Below, one piece after another: positions 60,904-63,942 of a DNA stretch of 64,000 nt (the stretch's first letter is position 1; each line of letters opens with the position of its first letter). The DNA is from Pedobacter sp. SL55 (GTDB lineage Bacteria; Bacteroidota; Bacteroidia; Sphingobacteriales; Sphingobacteriaceae), in NCBI RefSeq assembly GCF_026625705.1, contig NZ_CP113059.1, forward strand, positions 1,426,001-1,490,000, given 5' to 3'. A model generated the notes under the pieces. It searched no databases. It had not been told where the DNA came from and saw nothing but the letters and a program-made list of their open reading frames with translations. A program made the position numbers and the translations under genes.

Positions 60904-60994
60904 AACACCCCGCCCGTTGGGCACCCCTCTGGAAGAGGGGAATGTTGGATGCTAATTCCCCTCTTCCAGAGGGGTGGTCGAAGACCGGGGTGTT
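60904..60994. repeat. long nested inverted repeat
   Basis: Outer arms AACACCCCG / CGGGGTGTT and inner arms of 22 nt (CACCCCTCTGGAAGAGGGG plus AAT, and the exact complement at 60955-60976). It can form a stem of more than 30 bp. A shorter relative is at 1646-1677. Confidence 0.8.
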
Positions 60995-61308
60995 CATCGT
61001 TTAAAGGCGGGTTATAACACCCGCCTTTTTTTATAAAATTCATTTTTCTGTTGAGGATGTTTTGAAATATTGATAGTTAATTAATCAAAAAAATATATAA
61101 ATGATTATTTCGTACATTTGACCTGCGTTTAATTTAGACTTCACGTCATTGCGAGGTGCGAAGCAATCTCTAATAAAGAAATACAATTGCTTTAGGATTG
61201 GTTTACTTCGTAGCTACTTCGCGGTTGTAACTCGCAATGACGATATGTTTAACCCATTGTCGGCAATAGTAGAACGCAAAGTTTGATCTTTGAAAAATTA
61301 ATAGAAAT

Positions 61309-61339
61309 AAAAAAAAGCGATCCAATCCTGAACCGCTTT
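61309..61339 (-). terminator. terminator of the tRNA-like array
   Basis: On the minus strand AAAGCG and CGCTTT with a T8 run close a hairpin 27 nt after the 3' end of the second tRNA-like gene. Confidence 0.75.
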
Positions 61340-61365
61340 CTTAACTAACTTATTATTTATAAAAA

Positions 61366-61510
61366 TGGCTGTTGGGGAAGGAGTCGAACCTTCAAGGGGT
61401 AGTTAGCTACAGTTCAAAAATTAATTTGTGGTCAACCCATAAACTGCGTTTGTCCCATGATCCCCACCACCGAGACAAGGAGGTGTGTCTGCCAATTTCA
61501 CCACCCAACA
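61366..61510 (-). tRNA. tRNA-Leu-like RNA, anticodon GUC, 73-nt variable region
   Basis: The acceptor TGTTGGG pairs with CCCAACA (7 bp), followed by G and an encoded CCA. The D arm (GTG, AAATTGGCAGA, CAC) has the class II tRNA-Leu form. The anticodon arm is CCTCC-TTGTCTC-GGTGG with one T-T mismatch, giving GUC at positions 34-36 and a pyrimidine at 37, both odd. The T arm is GAAGG-TTCGACT-CCTTC. Between them lie 73 nt where class II tRNAs have at most about 24. That insert closes with GGGG/CCCC and has further small hairpins. It may be a pseudogene, an intron-like insert or an unusual small RNA. Confidence 0.55.
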
Positions 61511-61586
61511 TTGTTTAATTTTCAGTCGGTAGTTTTCAGTTTTCAGTCTGGTGACTGCGAACTTTGTACTGTTAACTGCAAATTGC

Positions 61587-61695
61587 TGTAGGGGAAGGAG
61601 TCGAACCTTCATAGAGTGGTTGTACCGTTACCGGATTTCCCAAATTCTCTACCACCGAGACAAGGAGGTGTGTCTGCCAATTTCACCACCCTACA
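61587..61695 (-). tRNA. tRNA-Leu-like RNA, anticodon GUC, 41-nt variable region
   Basis: Same acceptor logic (TGTAGGG / CCCTACA) and identical D, anticodon and T arms to the copy at 61366. The variable region is 41 nt: TAGAG and CTCTA close it, with CCG-GTAA-CGG (a GNRA loop) and a TTGG/CCA pair inside. The first bases outside the 3' end are G then CAA, so CCA is not encoded here. It is the upstream copy of the pair, preceded by a good promoter on the same strand. Confidence 0.55.
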
Positions 61696-61791: not shown

Positions 61792-61824
61792 CAAATATAG
61801 GGTGTTTATCAAACACATTGCAAA
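61792..61824 (-). promoter_or_regulatory. promoter of the tRNA-like array
   Basis: On the minus strand TTTG (61824-61821), a 21-nt spacer and TATATTTG (61799-61792) match the consensus, about 97 nt before the first tRNA-like gene. This shows the array can be transcribed as a unit. Confidence 0.7.
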
Positions 61825-61897: not shown

Positions 61898-62374
61898 ATG
61901 TTGAAAAAAGAAACTCAAAATTTAGAAATTGATAACCTCGACATCCAGATACTTACCCAACTGATGCACGACGCTACAAAGCCATACACAGAAATTGCAA
62001 AAGAACTGATAGTTTCTGGGGGTACGGTGCACGTGCGTATGAAAAAACTGGCAGACATGGGGATCATTAGAGGCTCGCATTTAATTATCGATCCAAGAAA
62101 AGCAGGATATGATATTACAGCATTTTTAGGGATTTATTTAGAGAAAGGTTCTTTATATAAAGATGCGGTAGATCAACTTAGTAAAATTAAAGAAGTGGTA
62201 GAGTTACATTATACTACTGGTGCCTATAGTATGTTTGCTAAAATTACTTGTAGAGATACCGATCATTTGCGCCACGTGTTAAATGAGGAAATTCAAGCTG
62301 TAAAAGGTATCCAACGTACAGAGACTTTAATCTCTTTAGAAGAAAGTATTAAAAGGCAAATAGAACTGATGTAA
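61898..62374 (+). CDS. Lrp/AsnC family transcriptional regulator
   Basis: 158 residues. A helix-turn-helix (L-D-I-Q-I-L-T-Q-L-M-H-D-A, P-Y-T-E-I-A-K-E-L, V-S-G-G-T-V-H-V-R-M-K-K-L) is followed by an Lrp ligand-binding (RAM) domain with I-K-E-V-V-E-L-H-Y-T-T-G-A-Y-S. These proteins sense amino acids and act as octamers. It is divergent from the tRNA-like array. Confidence 0.93.
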   Translation: MLKKETQNLEIDNLDIQILTQLMHDATKPYTEIAKELIVSGGTVHVRMKKLADMGIIRGSHLIIDPRKAGYDITAFLGIYLEKGSLYKDAVDQLSKIKEVVELHYTTGAYSMFAKITCRDTDHLRHVLNEEIQAVKGIQRTETLISLEESIKRQIELM

Positions 62375-62861: not shown

Positions 62862-63942
62862 ATGAACGTGCAAGAAAATACCTCATTTGGAATACCACAA
62901 TCTAGGGTTAATGTTATTTATTATGCCAATCAGTACGATGCCGATATCATTGCCGAGTTTAGTGGGGGAGGAAGTCTAAAAAAAGCCAGCAGTTTTGCCA
63001 ATCTCTATGAAATAGTAAGTAAACTATCTGTTTACGAATTAGATGTGAGCATTTTGTTAGAGGTGCAGCCAAGCGCTGTAAGCGAGGCATTTGGTTTGGT
63101 AGAAACCTTGAAGAAAAATTGGTTGAGTAGAAACTTGGTTGTTGTTTTTTTACTTACCGAGAAAGACCCATCTGTTACCGAAACAGCTTTTGCTGCTAGA
63201 GTGGCAGATTGCTATTCTCCAACTATTTCATTTGCCGATGTAAAGCTGCGACTTCAGTTTTTATCAGCCTATAAAATACTCAATGAGCAATTAAAAAACT
63301 TGCCAGAAGCGCCATTACAGCAATATAAAGTGCCTTTTTTAAAGCGTTTGCTAGATTTGGCTATCTCTTTAACAGCACTCTTTTTTTTAAGTCCGGTACT
63401 GCTTGTTATTGCTATACTTATTAAATTAGATTCTAAGGGACCGGTTTTTTATACCAGCAAAAGGGTAGGTACTGGTTACAAGATCTTCGATTTTTATAAA
63501 TTTAGATCGATGCGGGTTAATGCCGATAAAGAGGTAGAGAAATTGAAAGCCACTACAGCCAACCAATATGGCGATTCTGCTTTCTTTAAGATGAAGGATG
63601 ACCCCAGAGTTACTAAGTTGGGAAATTTTTTTAAGAAATTCAAGTATCGATGAACTTCCTCAACTATTTAATGTAATTAAAGGAGATATGTCTATTGTTG
63701 GAAACAGACCTTTGCCGCTTTACGAAGCAGAGCAGCTTACTACCAACGAATGGTCTATGAGATTTTTAGGCCCAGCAGGCATTACTGGTCTTTGGCAAAT
63801 TATTAAAAGAGGCAAAAGTGATATGTCTGACCGTGAGCGTAAAAAACTGGATAACTTTTACAATAAAAAATTCTCAGTTTGGTTAGATTTGAAAATTATT
63901 TTAATGACCATACCTGTGCTTCTACAAAAAGAGAAAGTGTAA
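62862..63942 (+). pseudogene. bacterial sugar transferase (WcaJ-like), frameshifted
   Basis: A first frame (62862-63653) has an N-terminal response-regulator-like region (about 1-150, no obvious phospho-Asp), a transmembrane segment and the sugar-transferase start K-R-L-L-D-L-A-I-S. The second frame (63598-63942) begins before the join; its genuine part continues with L-R-N-S-S-I-D-E-L-P-Q-L-F-N-V, G-D-M-S-I-V-G-N-R-P and G-L-W-Q-I. A run of seven T near 63625 with one T too many splits them. The restored protein of about 360 residues would transfer a sugar phosphate to undecaprenyl phosphate at the inner membrane to start exopolysaccharide synthesis. Confidence 0.85.

Follow-up and report, generated by a model that had tools for sequence, protein, structure and literature searches.

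Tandem tRNA-like RNAs beside an AsnC-type gene in Pedobacter: candidate non-decoding carriers for asparagine synthesis in Bacteroidia

Background

A tRNA-like RNA that works outside translation, as we propose for the RNAs described here, is known from B. cereus (pseudo-tRNA(Other)); we know of neither an AspRS/GatCAB logic nor an AsnC partner for it. In the sections of PMC4206432 at hand, some Bacteroidetes are described as having AsnRS, GlnRS and GatCAB and no asparagine (Asn) synthetase, and possible synthesis on tRNA-Asn is proposed. According to the excerpted text of PMC9976931, the strong determinants of aspartate (Asp) identity are G73, G34, U35, C36 and C38; U1-A72 makes an Asp-tRNA a substrate for amidation, G1-C72 together with U20a prevents this, and the G1-C72 pair of bacterial tRNA-Asp is said to help place the 3' end in the AspRS of E. 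coli. For the non-proteinogenic tRNA-Gly of S. aureus, A51-U63 is given as a weak EF-Tu pair, and A49-U65 likewise, in the relevant part of PMC4052509. In the searched portion of the allo-tRNA review PMC7609411, the word 'Bacteroid' is absent.

The RNA pair and its expression signals

The window is the whole stretch of DNA analysed (64,000 nucleotides of Pedobacter sp. SL55). Two tRNA-like RNAs are found on its minus strand, copy A at 61586..61695 and copy B at 61369..61510. Copy A has a 7-bp acceptor stem and a 5-bp T stem, U1-A72, G2-C71, G73 and a 41-nt variable arm (61611..61651; stem, bulge, UGG/CCA helix, internal loop and small hairpin), and the encoded CCA is absent. Copy B has the same core, a 73-nt variable arm of the long-hairpin subtype with the GGGUUGACCAC motif (61394..61466) and an encoded CCA (61366..61368). 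The D, anticodon and T arms do not differ between the copies, and the acceptor stems differ in one pair (A4-U69 in A, U4-A69 in B). The anticodon arm of copy A (61652..61668) is CCUCC-UUGUCUC-GGUGG, with a U.U mismatch at 29-41, compared with CCGCC-CUGUCAC-GGCGG in the host tRNA-Asp. The GUC anticodons are at 61661-61659 (A) and 61476-61474 (B), and both copies retain U33 but have U37 (loop UUGUCUC).

A promoter-like TTTG-21-TATATTTG (61792..61824, minus strand), which we take to be the Bacteroidota promoter consensus, lies upstream of the pair, and a terminator-like hairpin with a T run (61311..61342, minus strand) lies downstream, so the two copies apparently form one transcription unit. A TAnnTTTG box was found at most 130 nt upstream of 55 of the 82 copies aligned below (42 with the TTTG), compared with 9% in shuffles. 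The earlier note, made from the sequence alone, had described two class II-like tRNA sequences with shared D, anticodon and T arms, variable regions of 41 and 73 nt and a GUC anticodon followed by a pyrimidine at 37, flanked by a promoter and a terminator; all of this was borne out, the flanking elements as promoter-like and terminator-like sequences, and on these we agree that the RNAs are probably expressed. Divergent from them is the conserved partner, a gene for an AsnC-type transcription regulator (61898..62374, plus strand).

ARAGORN found no tRNA in the window. In the whole genome (4.44 Mb, one contig), it names 47 ordinary tRNAs among 48 RF00005 stretches, including tRNA-Asp GUC and tRNA-Asn GUU, and the DNA query gave no other convincing match there (next E 0.43). 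With Rfam RF00005, copy A scores as a weak tRNA (36.1 bits, E 4e-5; gathering cut-off 29), and copy B gave no match.

Two other features of the region were noted. Inverted-repeat stretches at 60911-60978 and 61141-61240 of the window, between an amidohydrolase gene and the RNA pair, resemble dispersed hairpin repeats. A bacterial sugar transferase (PF02397) is seemingly split over two overlapping frames (62862-63653 and 63598-63942), the first of which covers only profile positions 1-87 of 179, which points to a frameshift or sequencing error.

Distribution and copy number

With the DNA query at E <= 0.001, matches were obtained in 40 of 59 genomes (our own included), and they were strong in 34 of the 35 genomes of the same genus; in the 35th (84% complete), the match was limited to 31 nt of the D arm. 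At E <= 1e-5, matches came from 161 of the 251 genomes in the GTDB family (15 of 25 genera). In a scan that gave at least 120 stretches, the genera among the matches listed include Pedobacter, Mucilaginibacter, Arcticibacter, Daejeonella, Pelobium, Hufsiella and Desertivirga. A covariance model (R1) built from alignment A1 (41 copies) led to homologues across the class, and a second model (R2) was built from alignment A3 (82 copies out of 61 hand-chosen loci). Copy A scored 129.7 bits with R1 and 116.2 bits with R2, both models having been built with copy A included. With R2 at E <= 1e-12, the RNA was found in 68 of 395 genomes (46 of 196 genera, 19 families), a survey of sampled genomes within class Bacteroidia in which the E-values, as those of short-calibrated covariance models, are rough.

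Judging from the RF00005 score of copy A and the 34 of 35 same-genus genomes, the RNA pair is real and beyond chance. Absence from relatives, which the earlier note had named as a sign of decayed pseudogenes, is the opposite of what was found in the genus and across the class. Rfam 15 gave nothing above any cut-off for 14 loci of the class, and it knows the family at most as a weak tRNA. Within the CC-licensed PMC literature, we found no paper describing the RNA by title or abstract.

The number of tandem copies varies among genomes. Five copies with 150-bp spacing were found at L093:5505-6220, three copies at L096:4299-5827, where every copy has a separate promoter-like box and terminator-like hairpin, and five pattern matches for the RNA at L170; this amplification suggests that dosage matters.

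Fold and variable arms

In alignment A3, 95.6% of the cells pair, and changes on both sides are found in 17 of 28 pairs; the covariation score (0.334, compared with 0.157 for shuffles and at most 0.143 for slid controls) leans towards structure because A3 was fitted to the structure. The acceptor and T stems are 7/5, with 100% paired cells in all 7+5 pairs, and position 29-41 in the anticodon stem is a non-standard pair in 40 of 79 distinct rows. The predicted folding energy of the cloverleaf is -30.6 kcal/mol for copy A (best fold, -31.7 kcal/mol) and -37.5 kcal/mol for copy B (best fold, -41.7 kcal/mol). Since both copies have a fold of lower energy, the cloverleaf rests on comparison.

The variable arms range from about 38 to over 100 nt across the family (rows read). 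Those of copies A and B had been called unrelated in the earlier note; they share an architecture, in which a stem of 4-5 bp is followed by a bulge of 4 nt, a 3-bp helix and an internal loop (GA..A / ..AA), and the main difference is the terminal hairpin. The 5-bp stem and the second, 3-bp helix both covary in A3; in the latter, UGG pairs with CCA in A and with CUA in B. The internal loop may resemble the UAA/GAN motif. B-type copies have an extra long terminal hairpin with GGGUUGACCAC, and such copies were also found in several other families of the class.

Identity bases

Each of G34-U35-C36, C38, G73, U1-A72 and G2-C71 was found in all 82 copies of A3, a count from which five sequences had been dropped (L286, with CUC; L308, with A38; L309, with UUC and A38; L312, with the loop deleted; and L315, a short tRNA-like sequence). 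Position 33 was U in 70 copies, G in 9 and C in 3, and position 37 was U in 65, C in 8, G in 8 and A in 1 (purine, 9/82). In a second set (22 copies from 15 genomes outside the models), C38, G73, U1-A72 and G2-C71 were again found throughout (22/22), GUC in 20 (the exceptions being CUC in G630 (L376) and UUC in G593 (L378)), U33 in 19 and U37 in 22. Some bias remains in this set because it was found with the model, though the model accepts non-GUC loops. The bases after G18-G19 are CA in 81 of the 82 copies and UA in one, so U20a is absent from the RNA. Our own tRNA-Asp has G1-C72 and UU after G18-G19, and our own tRNA-Asn has U1-A72 and UU after G18-G19 (U20a). By the published amidation rules, the RNA would be the best amidation substrate in comparison with these two tRNAs.

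The RNA therefore combines, in 82 of 82 copies, the anticodon and discriminator set of tRNA-Asp (G34, U35, C36, C38 and G73) with the predicted substrate bases of GatCAB (U1-A72 present, U20a absent), and it differs from tRNA-Asp in the first pair (U1-A72 in place of G1-C72) and in the variable arm (at least about 38 nt among the rows read, instead of a short region). The U33 and purine 37 of a decoding tRNA are not maintained (U33, 70/82; purine 37, 9/82), and neither the 8/4 nor the 9/3 acceptor/T stems of allo-tRNAs were found. A51-U63 is present in 80 of 82 copies, and 49-65 is G-C in all 82.

Several other assignments were considered and rejected. As for a target of Tgt (queuosine), Tgt needs U33-G34-U35, and U33 is lost in 12 of 82 copies. 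As for anti-Shine-Dalgarno mimicry by CACCUCCUU of the anticodon arm, presumably a string of the 16S 3' tail, several Pedobacter B copies have CCUUC and the other families mostly have CCCUC. The name 'tRNA-Leu-like' in the earlier note holds for the D arm; it fails at base 73, which is G (82/82 and 22/22) and not the A73 given as the bacterial Leu determinant in the available text of PMC9976931. G73 argues against LeuRS, and the name is misleading, since the identity bases are the aspartate set plus the amidation signal U1-A72. Ser identity fits G73, G2-C71 and the large variable arm, but the C72, C11-G24 and G30-C40 listed in the same text (PMC9976931) are not the common state (A72, 82/82; U11, 78/82), and SerRS leaves the invariant GUC unexplained.

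The AsnC-type partner gene

The best NCBIfam match of the partner protein is AsnC (NF008384, 171.7 bits; Lrp, 47), which is below the cut-off of 227, and we therefore call it AsnC-like and do not assign it as an equivalog; its best PDB match is AsnC (2cg4). AsnC was the only widely common neighbour of the RNA (39 of 58 loci, which were chosen for carrying the RNA, a few of them coming from one genome), and the next best neighbour family, found in just 8 of the 58, was rejected as a conserved partner. An AsnC ortholog (E <= 1e-45) is present in 91 of the 395 class genomes, namely in 66 of 68 RNA carriers compared with 25 of 327 others, in counts that ignore kinship. The RNA and AsnC lie within 270 bp on one contig in 45 genomes, and the nearest RNA copy is divergent from AsnC in 44 of these; in the remaining one (G642), another copy, not the nearest, is divergent. 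In 21 genomes, the RNA and AsnC are on different contigs, some at contig ends; the AsnC regions of 15 of these (two shortened by contig ends, L362 and L370) gave no RNA match above 15.4 bits.

The AsnC regions of the 25 genomes having AsnC only gave no match with R2 except at L343 (32 bits). The sequence there (L343:2270-2382, minus strand, genome G399) lies beside the AsnC ortholog and agrees with the RNA in its acceptor, its T arm and G73, while its D and anticodon arms are replaced; it is a reduced relative. In three members of our own family without RNA and GatB (L337, L338 and L339), what remains on the divergent side of AsnC is a promoter-like box and a short stretch ending in a hairpin. 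At L345 (G435; AsnB present, no GatB), the T-arm-like GGTTCGAGTCC is found in a short divergent stretch about 174 nt from AsnC and is possibly another tRNA-like relic.

The side divergent from AsnC was read in 22 of the 25 AsnC-only genomes (L350, L352 and L355 were left out). Asparagine synthase B was found beside AsnC at L342 (NF006949, 941 bits, above cut-off), and AsnB-like ORFs or starts at L351, L354, L358 and L359; an AsnRS-like asparagine synthetase was found at L347 (NF005054, 326 bits, above cut-off), and similar ORFs at L346 and L356. AsnB is divergent from AsnC in G371, and the AsnRS-like enzyme in G487 and G442. In total, 8 of the 22 have an asparagine synthetase or a similar ORF or start at AsnC, the other 14 having other genes, short transcripts or nothing recognised. 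In several families, the place beside AsnC that the RNA takes in carriers is thus taken by an asparagine synthetase.

GatB and asparagine synthetases

Gene content was compared in 80 hand-chosen genomes (46 of the 68 carriers, 22 of the 25 AsnC-only genomes and 12 of the 302 with neither). GatB is present in 46 of 46 carriers compared with 23 of 34 others (Fisher p 3e-5, ignoring kinship). AsnA was found in 4 of the 80: G074, G096 and G330, all without an RNA match, and G456, whose RNA has CUC instead of GUC. In Bacteroides ihuae, which serves as a control, AsnA is present and GatB is absent. The loss of GUC in G456 with AsnA present fits relaxed selection; CUC is likewise found in G630, a genome from the genus of G456, and two carriers with altered loops and no AsnA (G429, UUC; G548, A38) do not illustrate it.

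TIGR01536 was above cut-off in 73 of the 80 genomes and in 40 of the 46 carriers by E-value ranking; those without it are our own genome, five further carriers (G108, G036, G429, G508 and G554) and G525. Its frames were 573-694 aa among the matches listed. Its members may serve other amidations, and some may be functional asparagine synthetases that belong to a different subtype. In 36 hand-chosen genomes (20 carriers, 12 AsnC-only, 4 with neither; joined query, E <= 1e-55), E. coli-type AsnB was found in 0 of 20 carriers and 8 of 16 non-carriers, and the AsnRS-like asparagine synthetase (AS-AR) in 0 of 20 and 2 of 16. Any of AsnA, E. coli-type AsnB or AS-AR was found in 1 of 20 carriers (G456) compared with 11 of 16 non-carriers; none of the three was found in five RNA-less genomes (G501, G306, G039, G045 and G522). 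Both AsnRS and GlnRS are present in 22 genomes, and among these GatB was found in 14 of 14 carriers compared with 0 of 8 non-carriers (p 3e-6, ignoring kinship).

Our own genome has AspRS, AsnRS, GlnRS and GatB; no AsnA, no TIGR01536 above cut-off (best E 2e-15) and no AS-AR at E <= 1e-55 were found in it. Three RNA-less genomes of our own family (G074, G079 and G096, out of about 90 RNA-less genomes in the family sample) have E. coli-type AsnB and no GatB, and two of them also have AsnA. The AspRS of our own genome, the one AspRS examined, has L31 and K83 as does E. coli AspRS, and we take these to be residues of the discriminating type.

Proposed role and alternatives

We consider it likely, with a probability of roughly 0.7, that these RNAs serve tRNA-dependent asparagine synthesis as dedicated carrier tRNAs that do not decode. 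Sequence conservation, covariation, synteny, the co-occurrence with GatB and the asparagine synthetases that replace the RNA beside AsnC in some relatives support the carrier reading, from which we infer the steps of charging, amidation, release and regulation. AspRS would aspartylate the RNA through G34-U35-C36, C38, G73 and G2-C71. With U1-A72 and no U20a in the RNA, GatCAB would then convert the bound Asp to Asn by amidation, and it would refuse tRNA-Asp (G1-C72, U20a). The RNA is expected to decode poorly, U33 and purine 37 not being kept, the variable arm being oversized and A51-U63 being weak for EF-Tu, so that the Asn-RNA would not be consumed by the ribosome. Asn would be freed by hydrolysis or handed over, and then be used by AsnRS; the release of free Asn would need a deacylase or slow hydrolysis. 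The divergent AsnC-type regulator would tune the expression to asparagine. As a guess, the extended variable arm, whose internal loop is conserved, is probably a docking site for AspRS/GatCAB or an obstacle to the ribosome, and the variable-arm motifs (GA..A/CUAA loop, GGGUUGACCAC) may organise AspRS-GatCAB assembly or speed asparagine release.

In a genome having AsnRS and GlnRS, GatCAB is without a canonical use, and in the lack of an asparagine synthetase there is no source of Asn; the proposed RNA would resolve both. As a discriminating AspRS cannot use tRNA-Asn and GatCAB refuses tRNA-Asp, a hybrid molecule would be needed. With slightly less confidence, we favour the wider statement that many Bacteroidia make asparagine with a purpose-built RNA cofactor that joins AspRS and GatCAB identity in a single molecule unable to decode, a non-coding RNA replacing asparagine synthetase at the AsnC-linked locus. 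If true, this would explain how bacteria with AsnRS and GlnRS and without a recognised asparagine synthetase make asparagine, and why GatCAB is kept. It would also mean a tRNA dedicated to amino-acid biosynthesis and not to translation, an RNA cofactor trading places with an enzyme beside one regulator. Counter to the carrier reading are U1-A72 in place of the G1-C72 of tRNA-Asp, G10 (another Asp determinant), which is G in only 44 of 82 copies, and the G-C pair at 49-65 (82/82). The TIGR01536 members in 40 of 46 carriers, the five RNA-less genomes in which none of the three synthetases was found and the carriers with altered loops and no AsnA also count against it. No substrate of AspRS with a variable arm of this size is known to us.

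Alternatively, Asn may be made on the ordinary tRNA-Asn by GatCAB and an AspRS of the non-discriminating type, as in Bdellovibrio, and the RNA may only regulate this route, e.g., as a decoy for AspRS under AsnC. This route is suggested for genera including Bacteroidetes in the sections of PMC4206432 at hand, our tRNA-Asn has U1-A72, and AsnC beside the RNA fits regulation. We regard it as unlikely, because the L31/K83 of our AspRS are those of the E. coli enzyme, our tRNA-Asn has U20a, an amidation antideterminant in the available text of PMC9976931, a decoy does not need the invariant U1-A72, and the retention of GatB should not depend on the RNA, yet the two go together (14/14 compared with 0/8). 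The gene-content evidence favours a biosynthetic carrier over a regulatory RNA.

A transfer of Asp or Asn from the charged RNA to an acceptor outside the ribosome (lipid, peptide or cell wall), instead of the production of free Asn, is improbable. The S. aureus non-proteinogenic tRNA-Gly is a precedent, and its A51-U63 (as given in part of PMC4052509) is kept in 80 of 82 copies; however, the neighbourhoods share no transferase gene, AsnC alone being widely common (39/58, next 8), and the asparagine synthetases that take the place of the RNA argue for free Asn. An unusual decoding tRNA that reads or misreads Asp codons, which the GUC anticodon, the cloverleaf and the encoded CCA of copy B might suggest, is very improbable in view of the G or C at position 33 in 12 of 82 copies, the purine 37 in only 9, the variable arms of about 38 to over 100 nt and the normal tRNA-Asp GUC of the genome. 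Decaying tRNA pseudogenes, one of the options of the earlier note, or att remnants of mobile elements can be practically dismissed in spite of the negative ARAGORN result and the varying tandem copy number, given the class-wide invariants, the compensatory changes (17 of 28 pairs with double changes), the promoter-like boxes, and the lack of matches in viral contigs (exact pattern) and in plasmids and phages (blastn); two further suggestions in that note, atypical tRNAs and selection on the core, are in agreement with our results.

Comparison with known systems

The closest system is the tRNA-Asn-based synthesis of Asn by non-discriminating AspRS and GatCAB in Bdellovibrio, Deinococcus and Thermus, as outlined in parts of PMC4206432. 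In both, Asp would be placed on an RNA having U1-A72 and G73 and amidated by GatCAB (as proposed here), and the genomes have AsnRS without an asparagine synthetase; unlike in that system, the role of carrier would fall to an RNA distinct from tRNA-Asn, class II-shaped, non-decoding and with a GUC anticodon, so that a discriminating AspRS would suffice. The RNA is an alternative or an addition to the tRNA-Asn proposal in those parts of PMC4206432. The S. aureus non-proteinogenic tRNA-Gly, which serves pentaglycine bridges (excerpt of PMC4052509), resembles it in being set apart from translation and in A51-U63; it differs in that the S. aureus tRNAs are isoacceptors with changed G18-G19 and the product is cell wall and not an amino acid. 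The allo-tRNAs (8/4, 9/3; portion of PMC7609411) share the long variable arm and unexpected anticodons, including GUC, whereas the RNA described here is 7/5, with a nearly invariant rather than diverse anticodon and A72, not C72. The tRNA-Leu of our own genome is similar in the D arm (GUGGAACUGGUAGACAC compared with GUGAAAUUGGCAGACAC), and the RNA described here is distinguished from it by G73, a much longer variable arm and another anticodon.
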